A DNA stretch of 64,000 nt from NCBI GenBank assembly GCA_028288125.1, contig JAQBOH010000033.1, positions 1-64,000 of the forward strand, given 5' to 3'. The stretch's first letter is position 1. The number at the start of each line of letters is the position of its first letter. The DNA comes from Mucilaginibacter sp. Its GTDB lineage: Bacteria; Bacteroidota; Bacteroidia; Sphingobacteriales; Sphingobacteriaceae. Both the position numbers and the translations under genes were made by a program. This document shows positions 48,469 through 56,912 of this stretch, piece after piece. The notes under the pieces are model-generated. The model worked only from the letters and a program-made list of their open reading frames with translations, was not told the origin of the DNA and ran no database searches.

Positions 48469-49836
48469 TTAGAAACCTATTGAAGCTTCAAGCACCACTC
48501 CTTTAAACTGACCGCCATTAAGGATATTATTGGTTGGATAATTCAAATATTCCTGGTTTACATATTCGGCCTTCATCATAATGTTTTTTGTTAAAAACCA
48601 TCCTGCCGAACCGGCTTCACGGTTAACCGTAACGTTTCCGGGGATGCCAGCGAGCGCCGCGGTTACCGTGTTATATCGCAAGCCAACCCAAAAGTTCTCT
48701 TTGCCTCGCGGGAACCTGTAGATCAAATCAGCCGCGTACTGGGTAGCCTGCCGGTTTGTTTTTTCGGCGATGGTCCTGCCATGTGCATCTTCTATAGTTC
48801 CAAAAAATTCAAGCCCATAATACTTTAAAAACAAGTTGCCCATGTAAGTGTGAACTTCTTCGCTGAATCCTGGATTCAGACGTCCCGAAAACGGGCTGTA
48901 ATCAACTGCATTGCTAAGCGTGGTGGCATTTGTCACCGCTTGGTTTTCCATCACGTTAAAATAATGCGACCCGGTGCGGTCTCCTCCAAAAAGGGTATTG
49001 CTATTGCCGCTGCTTAGGGTATAGAACGACCCTGTCATTCTTAACCTGAATTTCGGCGTAAACTGCTTGTCGAACCCTATTTTTCCCAGGAATGCAGGAT
49101 TATATTTGTTAACCTGTTGTGTGGCAGAGTCAATTTTTACAGGTGCTATTACGGTTTCGTTAAGCATGCCGTTGGTTATCCCTCCCATCAAAAACAAACC
49201 GCAGTCATGGTGATAATAAAATTGGGCGCCCAGTTCTGTCGCGAATTCGTCCATGATATAATTTTCAACGAACGGGTTATAAATGGTATTACCGCCATCA
49301 CTTCTTCTGAAATGCTGGTCGCCATAGTCAACATCGTTCTGGCCGATCTTGATCGTGACACTTTTCATGATTTGATCTGCTATGGCGCTGTGCAGAAAGG
49401 TCAGCTTATCAAATTGGATATAGCCGCCTTTTACCCATGTTTCTTCATGGTGCCTCGATGCCAGGTACGAGGTGATGTTCATACGGACACCGTCTGCAAG
49501 CTGTACATCCACGTTCAGATTAGCCATAGGCAGGGTGAACCCGTTAGTAAGTGTGATAAGGCTATTTACATTTCCGGTAAAGCCCGTTCTTGTAAGCGGC
49601 AAAGCGGTATTTTGATCCTTTAATGTCTGAAAACTCAATTCAAAGTTACCGCCAACCTTAACTTTAAGGCCGGTAAACGGAACGGTATCTTTTTTAGACG
49701 TTTCAAAAACATTTATCCCGAGCTTACTATTTGGCCGAAGGAATTGGATGGTCTCCTGTGCGCTCGCAGCAGTCGGCGCAAAACCGAGTCCCGCGACTGC
49801 AAGTGAGCCTAGTATGATAAAAAGTTTATTTTTCAT
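48469..49836 (-). CDS. outer-membrane porin-like protein
   Basis: Signal peptide, alternating beta pattern, C-terminal aromatic (EASIGF). Confidence 0.65.
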   Translation of the reverse strand: MKNKLFIILGSLAVAGLGFAPTAASAQETIQFLRPNSKLGINVFETSKKDTVPFTGLKVKVGGNFELSFQTLKDQNTALPLTRTGFTGNVNSLITLTNGFTLPMANLNVDVQLADGVRMNITSYLASRHHEETWVKGGYIQFDKLTFLHSAIADQIMKSVTIKIGQNDVDYGDQHFRRSDGGNTIYNPFVENYIMDEFATELGAQFYYHHDCGLFLMGGITNGMLNETVIAPVKIDSATQQVNKYNPAFLGKIGFDKQFTPKFRLRMTGSFYTLSSGNSNTLFGGDRTGSHYFNVMENQAVTNATTLSNAVDYSPFSGRLNPGFSEEVHTYMGNLFLKYYGLEFFGTIEDAHGRTIAEKTNRQATQYAADLIYRFPRGKENFWVGLRYNTVTAALAGIPGNVTVNREAGSAGWFLTKNIMMKAEYVNQEYLNYPTNNILNGGQFKGVVLEASIGF

Positions 49837-49847
49837 GGTTATTCTTA

Positions 49848-50477
49848 TTAGTTTGTTTGAGTTAAAAGCTGGTTATTTTTATATATCAGGTTAAATTGGA
49901 TAGTGAGGTCGTTTTTTACCTTCATCGCGCCCAGCATAAAGCTCGGCGGATCGATATTAAAATCGGTTAATTTTATTTTTTGCGAACCGCTGCAGCTGAT
50001 TGAATTGTCAGGATTAACAACCGCACTCACCAATATTACAATCGTTTGGGTTGCTCCTGCTATTCTCAGCTCGCCGGTGGTTCTGATCGAGTACTTATTC
50101 TTTTGCATTGCAGTAATAACAGCATGAGTAAGCTTATAAGTAATCTTTGGATATTGGTCGGCTTTTATGGTTTTATAGGTACGGGTGTCCATTGACTCAT
50201 GGTCGCTTTTCAGGCTCTTAGCATCTACCGAAAAGTTGAATGCAAGCAGCGAACGGAGAGTTCCGCCTTCAAAATTAAACTCGCCCCGGCTCTCCATCGT
50301 AGAAGCGGTCATGGTCCAGTCGTGTACATTGGACGAACCCAACACCGTGATGGCGGCATCCTTGCCTGGGGATAGCCGGTACGTGTTTTGCGCCAGTAAT
50401 GGCTGAGGAATAAGGCCCGAAGTAATTAGGGCGATTATAACGGAGAGACATGCAATTTTCAATTTTAAGTTTTTCAT
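49848..50477 (-). CDS. YceI family protein
   Basis: Signal peptide; SSNVHDWTMTASTMESRGEFNFEGG...FNIDPPSFMLGAMKVKNDLTIQFNL. Confidence 0.88.
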   Translation of the reverse strand: MKNLKLKIACLSVIIALITSGLIPQPLLAQNTYRLSPGKDAAITVLGSSNVHDWTMTASTMESRGEFNFEGGTLRSLLAFNFSVDAKSLKSDHESMDTRTYKTIKADQYPKITYKLTHAVITAMQKNKYSIRTTGELRIAGATQTIVILVSAVVNPDNSISCSGSQKIKLTDFNIDPPSFMLGAMKVKNDLTIQFNLIYKNNQLLTQTN

Positions 50478-50506: not shown

Positions 50507-50551
50507 GAGCGCACAGCGCCGCTCGGAAATGATGCCGGTTAAGCAGATAAG

Positions 50552-50563
50552 TGACATATATCA
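50552..50563. promoter_or_regulatory. FNR/Crp-like site TGACATATATCA
   Basis: Minus strand reads TTGAT-ATAT-GTCAC; centre 51.5 bp upstream of TACATTTG. Confidence 0.6.
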
Positions 50564-50634
50564 AGCTATTTTATGGTCTGAGGCGGTCAATTAAATGCAG
50601 CCCATGTGGATTATTTTGATTAACTTAGGATGAA

Positions 50635-51822
50635 ATGGAAAATGCCGCCTTATTAAAATCAATTATCGAAAACGCAATAGATGGCATCCTTACAATAGAT
50701 GAGCGCGGAAGGATAGAGTCTATTAATCCTGCCGCGTGCAGGCTTTTTAATTATTTACCCGAAGAAGTTATCGGCAAAAACGTAGCTATGCTTATGCCCC
50801 CGCCCGACCGCGACCAGCACGACGAATACCTGCACCGGTACCAACGGACCGGCGATCCGCATATTATTGGCACCGGGCGCGAAGTGGTAGGTTTACGAAA
50901 GGACGGATCCCGTTTTCCTTTTCGGCTGGGTGTTAGTGATGTGGAATTTTCGGGCCGAAAAATATACGCGGGTTTTATTCACGATCTAAGCGCCCAAAAA
51001 GAGGCCGAGATGCGGCTCAAAGATTATGCGACGCACCTGGAAGAACAGGTAGAAGAACGTACACGGGTGTTGAATAACACGATACTGGCCCTGCGGCAGG
51101 CAAAGGAAGAGGTTAGTTTTTCATTAGAAAAGGAGAAAGAACTGAGCCAGCTGAAAAGCAGATTCGTTTCTATGGCCTCGCATGAGTTTCGTACTCCATT
51201 GAGCGCAGTACAGTTATCAGCTTCGTTAATTGAAAAATATGCCGAACCTTTTGAAAGCTCTAACATCAGTAAGCATGTGGGTAAGATCAAAAATGCGGTA
51301 GGGAATCTCACCACTATATTAAATGATTTTCTTTCGCTCGAAAAACTTGAGGCCGGGAAGGTGGAACCCAACTTCACCAGTTTCGACCTGGTTAAGCTGG
51401 CCGAAGAGATCACTGAGGAAATGCAGATGGTGGCTAAGCAAAACCAAAATATCATTTACCAGCATACCGGCACTATCAGTATGGTAAAGCTTGATCCGAA
51501 TTTGCTTAAGAATTGCATCTTCAACCTGATAACAAATGCCATAAAATATTCGGGCGAAAATACTTTTATCGACTTTAACACCGAGATAAACGCGCAAAAC
51601 TGTATAGTTACGATACGGGACAACGGCATAGGCATTCCCGAGGCGGCTCAAAAACATTTATTCGAAGCTTTTTTTCGCGCCAATAATACGGGCAGTATTC
51701 CCGGAACCGGGCTCGGCCTTAATATCGTAGCCCGTTACACCGGCCTTATGAACGGAACAATTGATTTCAAAAGCAATGATAAGCACGGTACACAATTTAC
51801 CATTACATTTCCGGCATTATGA
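50635..51822 (+). CDS. FixL-like PAS sensor histidine kinase
   Basis: PAS with GDPHIIGTGREVVGLRKDGSRFPFRL, SHEFRTPLSAV, GTGLGLNIV. Confidence 0.9.
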   Translation: MENAALLKSIIENAIDGILTIDERGRIESINPAACRLFNYLPEEVIGKNVAMLMPPPDRDQHDEYLHRYQRTGDPHIIGTGREVVGLRKDGSRFPFRLGVSDVEFSGRKIYAGFIHDLSAQKEAEMRLKDYATHLEEQVEERTRVLNNTILALRQAKEEVSFSLEKEKELSQLKSRFVSMASHEFRTPLSAVQLSASLIEKYAEPFESSNISKHVGKIKNAVGNLTTILNDFLSLEKLEAGKVEPNFTSFDLVKLAEEITEEMQMVAKQNQNIIYQHTGTISMVKLDPNLLKNCIFNLITNAIKYSGENTFIDFNTEINAQNCIVTIRDNGIGIPEAAQKHLFEAFFRANNTGSIPGTGLGLNIVARYTGLMNGTIDFKSNDKHGTQFTITFPAL

Positions 51823-52877
51823 GTAAAAAAGTATTGGTCATCGAGGACAATGACGATATCAGGGAAAATGTAGTCGAAATATTGGGTCTGGCAGGATATG
51901 CAACTTTTGAAGCTAATAACGGAAAAGCGGGGGTCGACCTTGCACGGCTGCATTTGCCCGATATTATCCTGTGCGACATCATGATGTCCGGTCTTGACGG
52001 GTACGGTGTATTGCATATACTAAATAAAAACGCGGCAACCGGCACTATTCCGTTCATCTTCTTAACCGCAAAGGCCGAACATGTTGATTTGCGTAAAGGC
52101 ATGGAACTTGGCGCCGATGATTACCTGACCAAGCCTTTTGACGACATGGAATTATTGGTTGCAATAGAAAGCCGCCTAAATAAAAAACAACAATTGGATG
52201 GTTTTTATAGCGCCTCGTTAAATAGCATTGACCAACTGGCATCAAAAGGCGATGGCCTGGCCGAGCTACAAAACACAATTGCCGGGCGCAAAGTAAGGCT
52301 TATTAAAAAAAACCAGGCTATCTATAACGAAGGGGACTTCGCCCAGGGGATTTACCTGGTATTAAGCGGGCGTTTTAAAACCATTAAGCTGGCCGAAGAC
52401 GGGCGTGAGTTAATTACAGGTATTTATACAAAAGAAGATTATATAGGTATTAACTCGCTATTGTTAAACGAGCCTTATTCCGAAACGGCACAGGCTATTG
52501 AAGACAGCTCGGTTTGTCTGCTGCCAAAGGATACGATCGACCAGCTTCTTTCAAATTTTACCGGGGTCGGCAAAAAATTTATACACATATTATCCGGCAA
52601 TATTCGTGAAAAAGAGGAACAGTTGCTTCAGATGGCTTACCATTCCGTTAGAAAACGCATGGCCGAAGTTCTTTTACGCCTGCTAAAACAGCAACCCGAA
52701 GCCAACGCGAATGAATGCTTAAAAGTCTCCCGCGAGGAAATGGGTTCTATGGCTGGTATGGCCACCGAAACCGTAAGTCGCATATTGTCTGACTTTAAAG
52801 AAGAAAAGCTGATTGAAAAAAAGGGAAGCTTGATCCGGATATTGGATAAGGGCCGGTTGGAAAAATTAAAAAACTGA
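51819..52877 (+). CDS. response regulator: receiver + cNMP-binding + Crp/FNR-type HTH fusion
   Basis: KVLVIEDNDDIRENV...DIILCDIMMSGLDGY; NQAIYNEGDFAQGIYLVLSGRFK; EEMGSMAGMATETVSRILSDFKEEKLIE. Confidence 0.92.
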   Translation: MSKKVLVIEDNDDIRENVVEILGLAGYATFEANNGKAGVDLARLHLPDIILCDIMMSGLDGYGVLHILNKNAATGTIPFIFLTAKAEHVDLRKGMELGADDYLTKPFDDMELLVAIESRLNKKQQLDGFYSASLNSIDQLASKGDGLAELQNTIAGRKVRLIKKNQAIYNEGDFAQGIYLVLSGRFKTIKLAEDGRELITGIYTKEDYIGINSLLLNEPYSETAQAIEDSSVCLLPKDTIDQLLSNFTGVGKKFIHILSGNIREKEEQLLQMAYHSVRKRMAEVLLRLLKQQPEANANECLKVSREEMGSMAGMATETVSRILSDFKEEKLIEKKGSLIRILDKGRLEKLKN

Positions 52878-52955: not shown

Positions 52956-53417
52956 ATGAAAGCCGTAGCATTCAGTGTTGAAAGTTCTGAAAAGGAGTTT
53001 CTCGCAAAGGCCAATAATAAAAAACACGATATTACCTTAATATCGAATGCTTTAAGCATAGGAACAGTAATTTACGCCAAGGGAAAGGCAGCTATCATCG
53101 TCAGCATAACCGATAATGTTTCTGATAAAATAATTCGTATTCTTTCGGGGTATGGGGTGAAGTATATAGCAGCCCGTTCAGTTGAGACAGATCATATCGA
53201 TAAAGTTGAAGCGGCAAAATATAATATCAAGGTGGCCAGCATTAATGTTGGTTTAGCTGAAGCTATTGGCGATGCCTTCGCTGTCCCGGCTGACCGGGCT
53301 CTTTTAGTCAATGAAAAACTTCAGCAGAACGCAAATCAAACCATCCTGAGCCTGGACATATGGCAGCAGTGCGACCACCAGGAAAAGTCGCTCCCATCAA
53401 AAGCATTTAATAAATAA
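52956..53417 (+). CDS. stand-alone N-terminal domain of D-2-hydroxyacid (lactate) dehydrogenase-like protein
   Basis: MKAVAFSVESSEKEFLAKANNKKHDITLIS...LSGYGVKYIAARSVETDHIDKVEAAKYNIKVASINV; no NAD-binding GxGxxG domain follows. Confidence 0.65.
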   Translation: MKAVAFSVESSEKEFLAKANNKKHDITLISNALSIGTVIYAKGKAAIIVSITDNVSDKIIRILSGYGVKYIAARSVETDHIDKVEAAKYNIKVASINVGLAEAIGDAFAVPADRALLVNEKLQQNANQTILSLDIWQQCDHQEKSLPSKAFNK

Positions 53418-54373: not shown

Positions 54374-54991
54374 TTAACGATTAATGGATTTTATTTTCAA
54401 ATGAAAATCAACGCTTAGCTTATCTTTTGTCTGTATCATTCCGCCTAGCTTTTTTGGCGGTATAAGATTGAAGTCAGAAAAATTCACGTCACGGGATCCT
54501 AATAAATGGATTACTTTTTGGTCATCCACCGAGATTTTGTATTTCACGTCAAACTGTTTTCGCACGCCGGCGATTTCAATCTCCACCATCCCGGTTATTG
54601 GCTCAGGTTGTGAGGTAAGCTCCGGAAGTTTATTTAATGTCAAAAAAGCTATATGAAGCATAGGAAACTGCTTTTCCTTCAGCGTTTTTCGAAGGTCACG
54701 TGTCATCATTGAGTTATGACAGTTAAAGCTTTGAATGTTTATACCTATCCCGCCTGATAAAATCATTTGACTTTTGCCCTGGCTTACCTTAATTGTATCG
54801 GTCCGTTCGTAAGCTAAAATATCGCATGCAAACTTGTTTACATTTGTACTTCCGTTAACGCATAGGCTGCTATTTTCACTAACTATCCATTTTCTCCCGT
54901 CAGCCGCATGGCTTAGCTGTCGCGGTAAAATGTAAGTCGCCGGGGCAACTAACAACAGGTAAAGACACAATATATTTTTGTATAACATCAC
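54374..54991 (-). CDS. YceI-like family protein
   Basis: SSLCVNGSTNVNKFACDI...FDVKYKISVDDQKVIHLLGSRDVNFSDFNLIPPKKLGGMIQTKDKLSVDFHLKI. Confidence 0.75.
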   Translation of the reverse strand: MMLYKNILCLYLLLVAPATYILPRQLSHAADGRKWIVSENSSLCVNGSTNVNKFACDILAYERTDTIKVSQGKSQMILSGGIGINIQSFNCHNSMMTRDLRKTLKEKQFPMLHIAFLTLNKLPELTSQPEPITGMVEIEIAGVRKQFDVKYKISVDDQKVIHLLGSRDVNFSDFNLIPPKKLGGMIQTKDKLSVDFHLKIKSINR

Positions 54992-55000
54992 GGTAAGTTA

Positions 55001-55408
55001 TCAGGGGTTGACTTTAGCAAATACTACCCCTGCTGTGATGGCCTGTAGCAATCCATAAATAAACCAGCTTAACACCATAGCTACCGTTATGTCTAGTGCG
55101 CTAAAAGATATCCACATAACCGGCAATAAAGCAATTACAGAGTATACGAGTCCAAATTCTAATCCCCTTAAAACAACTCTGCCTTTAAACAATGCTTTGA
55201 ACCGGTCCCAAAACCAGGATAAGGCGAAGCTGAATATAAAAGCATGTAGATAAAACAGCATATCCCTGCTGCCGTCTGAGTTAAACAACGGATTATTATA
55301 TTCGGTGAACAGCTTCGGGAAAAACCGGATAGCCAGGAACAGGCCGCCATAGCTCAATATGAATAAAATGCAGCCCCCTATTAATCCTGCAATAAGGATT
55401 TTTTTCAT
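55001..55408 (-). CDS. membrane protein of unknown function
   Basis: MKKILIAGLIGGCILFILSYGGLFLAIRFF; 4 hydrophobic stretches; start could be 55423. Confidence 0.7.
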   Translation of the reverse strand: MKKILIAGLIGGCILFILSYGGLFLAIRFFPKLFTEYNNPLFNSDGSRDMLFYLHAFIFSFALSWFWDRFKALFKGRVVLRGLEFGLVYSVIALLPVMWISFSALDITVAMVLSWFIYGLLQAITAGVVFAKVNP

Positions 55409-55521
55409 TTTGTTAAGATTCAATTACGTAAGCTATTTCGACAGTAAAAACGGGATGTCACCCTCAGCCCCGCCGGGGACGGGCGCAGGCCCTCCTCAAC
55501 GAAGCTCAAAGTAACAGTCTA

Positions 55522-56637
55522 TCAATTCTCCAGGATCACTTTCAAAGCTTTTTCCTTTGCGGCATTTCCGAACGTATCATATGCCTCAATGATGCGGTCA
55601 AGTTTAAAATGATGAGTAATAAGTCGTTTTGGCTCTATTTTTTTAGCCTGAACAGTTTTTAGCAGCAAAGGCGTGGTAACCGTGTCAACAAGCCGGGTGG
55701 TTATCGTGATGTTTTTTGACCATAAGTTTTCCAGGTGTAGCGTTACACTTTTCCCATGAACCCCAATATTGGCAATATGGCCTCCGGGGCCAATAATTTC
55801 CTGGCACAATTCAAATGTTGCTGGTACGCCCACAGCCTCGATCGCAACGTCAACTCCTTTATCGCCCGTGAGCCTCTTGATTTTTTCTATTGTGTTTTCA
55901 GTAAGCGTATTGACAATTTGGGTGGCGCCGAAAGTTTTTGCCAGGTTCAGGCGATTCTCATCCTGGTCGATCATAATAATTTCTGCAGGCGAATAAAATT
56001 GAGCGGTCAATAACGCTGCTATACCTATCGGCCCCGATCCAACAATCGCTACAGTATCGCCGGGCTTTACCTGTCCGTTTAATACACCGCATTCAAAACC
56101 GGTAGGTAAAATATCGCTGAGCATTACCAGGGCCTCCTCATCCGAACCGGCAGGGATCGGGTAAAGGCTGTTGTCCGCGTGTGGTATCCTCACATATTCG
56201 GCCTGCGTGCCATCAATCATATAACCTAATATCCATCCGCCGTCGATGCAATGCGAATACATGCCCTTTTTGCAATACTCGCATTTGCCGCATGAGGTAA
56301 TACAGGATATGATTACATGGTCGCCTGGTTTAAAGTTACTTACCCCGCTGCCAACCTCTTCTATTATACCAACGCCTTCGTGACCTATAATTCTACCGTC
56401 CTTAACCTCGGGCAGGTCACCTTTCATAATATGCAGGTCTGTTCCGCATATTGTTGTTTTAAGAATTTTTACGATTGCATCCGTTGGTTTTGTTATAGTG
56501 GGTTTTGGTTTATCTTCCCAAGCCTTTTTTCCGGCGCCATGATAAACTAAAGCTTTCATGTTTTTAATCGCATCTCCATTGGAGCCGTTAGGCTGTACAA
56601 GAAGCGTTACAATTTTGTCCACAAGTAAATTTTCCAT
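55522..56637 (-). CDS. zinc-dependent alcohol dehydrogenase family protein
   Basis: CGTDLHIMKGDLPEVKDGRIIGHEGVGII...CGKCEYCKKGMYSHC; AIVGSGPIGIAALL; start set at MENLLVDK. Confidence 0.92.
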   Translation of the reverse strand: MENLLVDKIVTLLVQPNGSNGDAIKNMKALVYHGAGKKAWEDKPKPTITKPTDAIVKILKTTICGTDLHIMKGDLPEVKDGRIIGHEGVGIIEEVGSGVSNFKPGDHVIISCITSCGKCEYCKKGMYSHCIDGGWILGYMIDGTQAEYVRIPHADNSLYPIPAGSDEEALVMLSDILPTGFECGVLNGQVKPGDTVAIVGSGPIGIAALLTAQFYSPAEIIMIDQDENRLNLAKTFGATQIVNTLTENTIEKIKRLTGDKGVDVAIEAVGVPATFELCQEIIGPGGHIANIGVHGKSVTLHLENLWSKNITITTRLVDTVTTPLLLKTVQAKKIEPKRLITHHFKLDRIIEAYDTFGNAAKEKALKVILEN

Positions 56638-56664
56638 AATAATAATTTGGTTTTTAATATATAA

Positions 56665-56672
56665 CAAAACTA
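56665..56672 (-). promoter_or_regulatory. -7 element TAGTTTTG of the adh gene
   Basis: TAnnTTTG on the minus strand. Confidence 0.6.
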
Positions 56673-56717
56673 TAGCTATTCAATTCCGGTATTAATGATA
56701 CGCGTTATCTCAATAAA

Positions 56718-56729
56718 TGATATAGATCA
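56718..56729. promoter_or_regulatory. FNR/Crp-like site TGATATAGATCA inside the extended palindrome CAATAAaTGATATAGATCAcTTATTG
   Basis: TGAT-N4-ATCA with outer CAATAA/TTATTG arms (56711-56736); centre 51.5 bp upstream of TAGTTTTG. Confidence 0.68.
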
Positions 56730-56912
56730 CTTATTGAACTCGCCATCGTCCTCTGCCGTTAAAAGGAGCTCGCGAATGGAAATTTCAACATCGGTTTTAA
56801 GACAATTTACACATTGGATTCGCACATCTGTCCATTAAGCCATCATACCAAACCCTGCTTTAGTTCAAAAACCAACTTTAAACAATTTAAAGTTACTTTT
56901 TCGTGCATCGGT

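Follow-up and report, generated by a model that had tools for sequence, protein, structure and literature searches.

A FixL-type PAS kinase and a receiver-Crp/FNR fusion regulator as a candidate one-step oxygen-responsive two-component system of Bacteroidota

The adjacent kinase and regulator genes described here are best interpreted as a two-gene oxygen-responsive two-component system, a one-step counterpart of FixL-FixJ-FixK, and we put the probability of this reading at roughly 0.7. The pair lies in a window of 64,000 nucleotides (contig JAQBOH010000033.1, positions 1 to 64,000) from a 3.4-Mb assembly of Mucilaginibacter sp. (GCA_028288125.1; 206 contigs, about 80% complete). The computed evidence consists of domain assignments, conservation of the heme pocket, linkage to cbb3 oxidase and hemN genes, and an upstream palindrome. 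The linkage and the palindrome, which is common to several of the genes concerned, support the proposal of the initial annotation that FixL-FixJ-FixK is here collapsed into two proteins.

The first gene (50635..51822, + strand) encodes a soluble sensor kinase of 395 aa with a FixL-like PAS domain, a long helical linker, HisKA and HATPase_c, in which no transmembrane stretch was found; its closest named relatives are from Mucilaginibacter, at no more than 88% identity. The second (51819..52877, + strand) encodes a response regulator of 352 aa with a receiver (REC), a degenerate cNMP domain and HTH_Crp_2. All Pfam matches were above cut-off (PAS, HisKA and HATPase_c in the kinase; Response_reg, cNMP_binding and HTH_Crp_2 in the regulator), and the two ORFs share ATGA at 51819-51822, so that the 4 nt overlap and the direct fusion of a phospho-receiver to a Crp/FNR effector, both noted initially, are confirmed. 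The predicted phospho-accepting H183 of the kinase (codon 51181..51183, + strand) belongs to SHEFRTPL and is invariant in the kinase alignment. FixL-type kinases have the H-box AHELNQPL; this is absent, and SHEFRTPL is found in the window protein as well as in the aligned orthologs. The C-terminal half matches HK853/WalK-type kinases, and the kinase scores 156.5 bits against the NCBIfam FixL model NF041777 (curated cut-off 850), the best stretch being the PAS region (6-134). AlphaFold2 models of the kinase (mean pLDDT 79.7, pTM 0.49) and the regulator (86.4 and 0.52) leave domain placement uncertain, and fold searches with the whole models returned domain-level matches only, adding little beyond fold assignment.

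In the regulator, the catalytic residues of a receiver are conserved: the acidic pair E9 and D10, the phospho-Asp D53, the Thr/Ser position T83 and the Lys K105. D53, the predicted phospho-acceptor (codon 51975..51977, + strand), is retained in 88 of 90 relatives. By Pfam and alignment, the following segment (52299..52556, + strand) has a cNMP-binding-type fold without the cAMP-contact residues R82/S83 of CRP, as no Arg occurs at the aligned positions E222/T223/A224. An N-terminal cysteine cluster for Fe-S binding is likewise missing from the regulator, as originally annotated; its relatives mostly have 1-3 Cys, and only C52 (in the receiver) and C233 recur among them, neither forming such a cluster. 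Because both the cysteine cluster and the cAMP-contacting Arg are lacking, phosphorylation is likely the most economical switch of this protein, which favours the earlier suggestion of control by phosphorylation rather than by an Fe-S cluster. The recognition helix ATETVSRIL (52761..52787, + strand) is strongly conserved, with E317 and R321 present in 90/90 relatives and S320 in 78/90, and its E..SR pattern is that of FNR and FixK. The regulator, with its N-terminal receiver, reaches 70.3 bits against the NCBIfam FixK model NF050806 (curated cut-off 300), and its order of REC, cNMP and HTH_Crp_2 is not that of FixJ, which has REC followed by a LuxR-type HTH.

A database survey for the REC-cNMP-HTH_Crp architecture, as suggested in the initial annotation, found it to be common: it is present in 109 of the 151 family genomes. 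In a phylum-wide set, the regulator was detected in 59 of 396 genomes, of which 57 belong to the same class and the other two match only over the receiver. The kinase upstream of the regulator is of the 395-aa FixL-like type in the nearer clade; in more distant families it carries another PAS, with the His kept and a different distal side. In the latter group (loci L211, L213 and L216-L226), where the REC-Crp regulator mostly pairs with such a kinase, a distal Met replaces I-I, possibly marking a second ligand class. In Dyadobacter sp. CY347 (L252), a kinase 66% identical to that of the window has no regulator match within 10 kb, possibly reflecting transfer or a separated pair. Plasmid records of Hymenobacter, Spirosoma and Runella carry the pair under the generic names 'response regulator' and 'PAS domain-containing sensor histidine kinase'. 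Since the fusion of these domains is found widely and under generic annotation, the architecture as such is not new. However, no characterisation or description of the pair was found in the literature searched, which included few subscription-journal papers, and its proposed role as the cbb3-linked O2 circuit of this class, with ligand residues and a predicted DNA site, appears to be undescribed.

Genes for the cbb3 oxidase follow the regulator closely in their distribution. Among the 151 family genomes, ccoNO occurs in 110; both are present in 100, the regulator only in 9, ccoNO only in 10 and neither in 32 (Fisher p 4e-16, a value inflated by the relatedness of the genomes, as the counts are not independent events). 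Where regulator and ccoNO lie on one contig, 64 of 78 pairs are within 25 kb of each other, in 12 genera. Named Mucilaginibacter loci show the order kinase-regulator-small gene-hemN facing ccoNOPGH, while two loci outside the family, one of them recorded as Chitinophagales, have ccoNO-P-G-tauE-kinase-regulator on a single strand. That the linkage recurs across genera, and that these two loci order the genes differently, speaks against a single arrangement having merely been inherited. In genome G017, the genes divergent from the pair are hemN, one for a heavy-metal P-type ATPase such as would be expected for CcoI, a fused ccoNO, ccoP and ccoG. Palindromes are located there in the kinase-hemN gap and just upstream of ccoNO.

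This palindrome, RTGAYN4RTCAY, was found first upstream of the kinase and tested afterwards on ccoNO. Exact copies occur upstream of the kinase operon in 28 of the 74 regions from relatives, compared to 0.4 in shuffles, and the motif was the best of 120 permuted half-sites at this position. Upstream of ccoNO, it was detected in 32 of 59 pair-bearing genomes vs 0.35 in shuffles, with sites between -82 and -105 and a further one at -216. All shuffles preserved only the base composition. Within the named loci, it precedes the kinase (19/29), YceI (4/8, with exact sites at -88 to -113), DUF55k (4/9) and ADH (3/7), and was never found upstream of the regulator, the small gene, ccoP, ccoG, ccoH, tauE, YceI_54k or the porin-like gene. 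The classical FNR box TTGAYN4RTCAA proved a weak candidate upstream of the kinase, with one mismatch in 13 of 76 cases and a single exact copy, vs 4.4 and 0.2 in shuffles. Counting the motif over whole genomes, with the reversed pattern as control, gave promising results for six genomes, but the counts were dropped as evidence over 151 genomes, where they do not separate those with and without the pair (G007, which is without it, has 85 vs 22).

A pair that senses O2 may nevertheless not be what acts on these sites: the palindromes at cco and kinase genes could be bound by a stand-alone Crp/FNR protein, with the REC-Crp regulator having other targets, an explanation that we regard as unlikely. 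All nine tested ccoNO genomes without a close REC-Crp homolog (L161-L168, L171) have a similar palindrome ahead of ccoNO, at -234 to -286, and because of this another Crp/FNR protein may share the predicted specificity. However, the sites in those nine genomes are about 150 bp further upstream, whereas sites near -90 are found in pair-bearing genomes, the operon of the pair itself among their locations. A TGA-type half-site also suits the E..SR helix of the regulator.

In the genome that contains the window, no ccoN match above cut-off was obtained (the assembly being about 80% complete), and ccoNO was also not found in four relatives with a similar cco-less neighbourhood, one of which is an isolate. 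The pair is kept in the window and in L227, L228, L232 and L239, even though searches of the respective genomes revealed no gene for cbb3 oxidase. In this lineage, it seems to have persisted beyond cbb3, and it probably serves remaining low-oxygen genes (ADH, YceI). A candidate Crp/FNR-type site, GTGACATATATCAA (50551..50564, one mismatch to RTGAYN4RTCAY), lies between the kinase and a divergent YceI-family gene (49848..50477, - strand), itself a candidate target on the strength of its domain match and of the exact sites in relatives. An exact candidate site, ATGATATAGATCAC (56717..56730), is located upstream of a gene for a Zn-dependent alcohol dehydrogenase (55522..56667, - strand; domain match), a further candidate target, and is kept upstream of ADH in L227 and L228. 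In several relatives (L230, L244 and L246), the genes for YceI and a second YceI-like protein, for an outer-membrane-like protein, for a DUF protein and for ADH (window 48469-50477 and 54374-56667) occur as a group close to hemN and cco genes, resembling a low-oxygen gene island. Directly downstream of the regulator is a small gene (52956..53417, + strand) with a domain match only to the N-terminal part of D-2-hydroxyacid dehydrogenase; it holds this position in most named relatives, has matches in 34 of 60 further loci, and its product could be a FixT-like modulator.

The PAS domain of the kinase (50653..50985, + strand; PF00989, E 1.1e-18), which contains RYQRTGDPHIIGTGREVVGLRKDGSRFPFRLGV, was compared to all PDB chains, and the best match was FixL (8js5, E 7.6e-31, without gaps over the PAS), an agreement that at the level of sequence is far beyond chance; 53 of 124 residues are identical to the PAS of BjFixL. 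The close resemblance to the FixL heme PAS that was noted in the initial annotation is thereby upheld, while its choice of ligand was wrong. The heme-ligating residue of FixL is BjFixL His200 (SmFixL His194) in the F-alpha helix (PMC10765370), and this aligns with H62 (codon 50818..50820, + strand), the predicted proximal heme ligand. The His of DPHIIG, H76 (codon 50860..50862, + strand), had been taken for the ligand, but corresponds to BjFixL H214 (numbering of aligned residues counted from His200) and can be ruled out. Conservation separates the two: in the 69 orthologs (the clade with 59-80% identity to the window kinase), H62 is invariant, whereas H76 is kept in only 42, the others having K (11), R (9), N (4) or S (3).

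The distal side of the pocket is equally well preserved. BjFixL Arg220 is the O2-contacting residue, and its equivalent R82 (codon 50878..50880, + strand), predicted to interact with O2, occurs in 69/69 orthologs. The hydrophobic positions that we judged to correspond to BjFixL I215, I216, L236 and I238 are also near-constant (I77, I78 and L98 in 68 each, V100 in 66). R68, the equivalent of BjFixL R206, which contacts a heme propionate, is kept in 50/69 orthologs and replaced by N in 14/69; this is no argument against heme, as the optical spectrum of SmFixL stays similar when the equivalent R200 is changed (PMC10765370). Seven other best-scoring PAS places of the same genome were compared, and in those that could be aligned to FixL in the region concerned, the ligand position is occupied by Glu, Leu or Asn. 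By its proximal His, distal Arg and hydrophobic distal residues, the window PAS can be assigned to the FixL heme-PAS type.

Heme PAS domains can bind several gases, and the USP, YceI and ADH neighbours fit general stress, so a heme-binding PAS that senses NO, CO or redox state, with the pair acting as a nitrosative or redox stress switch, has to be considered; we find this improbable, given a distal Arg and hydrophobic distal wall as in FixL and the linkage to a high-affinity O2 reductase and the O2-independent HemN. That the PAS is without heme, its FixL-like residues being ancestral, and binds another ligand or is a passive dimer module, with the proximity to cbb3 reflecting a respiratory island, is very improbable: sequence alone cannot prove heme binding, and the distant regulator-linked kinases, which keep the His and lose I-I-x3-R, show that the His is not diagnostic by itself, but the orthologous clade retains the entire pocket signature while the adjacent H76 drifts.

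Returning to the one-step oxygen-responsive circuit, we infer heme binding, O2 as the ligand, the sign of the response, phosphotransfer, and binding of the palindrome by the REC-Crp regulator. The cytoplasmic PAS would bind heme b via H62, and O2 on the distal side, beside R82, would keep the kinase inactive. When O2 is low, the PAS with its deoxy-heme would free the kinase for autophosphorylation at H183, from which the phosphate would pass to the regulator at D53. Once phosphorylated, the receiver would switch the Crp/FNR-type DNA-binding half, in place of an Fe-S cluster or cAMP. This half would bind RTGAYN4RTCAY at a distance of about 60-115 bp upstream of several targets: its own operon, ccoNOPGH, hemN where this stands separate, and ADH and YceI-type genes. 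Whether Bacteroidota built their own one-step oxygen circuit, from an unrelated kinase core bearing a heme PAS of the FixL type, a receiver-Crp/FNR fusion and wiring to cbb3 and hemN, which the window lineage kept after cbb3 loss for other low-oxygen genes, is in our estimation an evenly balanced question.

Oxygen sensing and the induction of high-affinity oxidases are little described in aerobic soil Bacteroidota. In Flavobacterium psychrophilum, cbb3 is induced by oxygen limitation, and the text of that paper was found to contain no named oxygen regulator when searched for Crp, FixL and two-component (PMC9723704). The pair offers a concrete candidate that is widespread and for which the heme ligand, the phosphosite, the DNA site and the targets are all predicted.

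With FixL-FixJ-FixK of Bradyrhizobium, Sinorhizobium and Caulobacter, the pair would share a FixL-type heme-PAS kinase, a Crp/FNR-class activator without Fe-S cysteines, and a target set of cbb3 oxidase genes, hemN and its own operon, in our case by linkage and candidate sites. It differs in that the receiver is fused to the Crp/FNR half, with neither a LuxR-type FixJ nor a separate fixK step, and in the typical HisKA H-box (SHEFRTPL) and HK853/WalK-type C-terminal half of its kinase. As the kinase core and H-box differ, a FixJ-type output is lacking and the NCBIfam cut-offs for FixL and FixK are missed, the pair as a whole is, on these comparisons, not a member of that system, and only its PAS is FixL-like. 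In Caulobacterales, the genes reportedly under FixK control are cco, hemN, fixLJ and that of FixK itself, a set that matches the one proposed here (PMC4999443).

The hFixL-FxkR-FixKf system of Rhizobium leguminosarum and R. etli likewise has a FixL-type kinase and low-O2 induction of cbb3 via a Crp/FNR protein, but with a hybrid kinase, FxkR and a separate FixK, and thus still two transcriptional steps (PMC7888657, PMC4999443). NmpRSTU of Myxococcus xanthus is also a two-component system that senses O2 through heme and controls cbb3 genes and hemN, with a protoglobin sensor, an NtrC-like regulator and domains that are unrelated (PMC11841059). FNR, FnrN and Anr resemble the regulator in the HTH_Crp DNA-binding half with its E..SR helix and in their low-O2 target genes; however, FNR senses O2 itself by an Fe-S cluster, whereas the regulator has a receiver and no cysteine cluster. 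If our interpretation is true, a Crp/FNR protein is switched here by a receiver where others use an Fe-S cluster or a cyclic nucleotide, and a cascade of two steps has been reduced to a single one.
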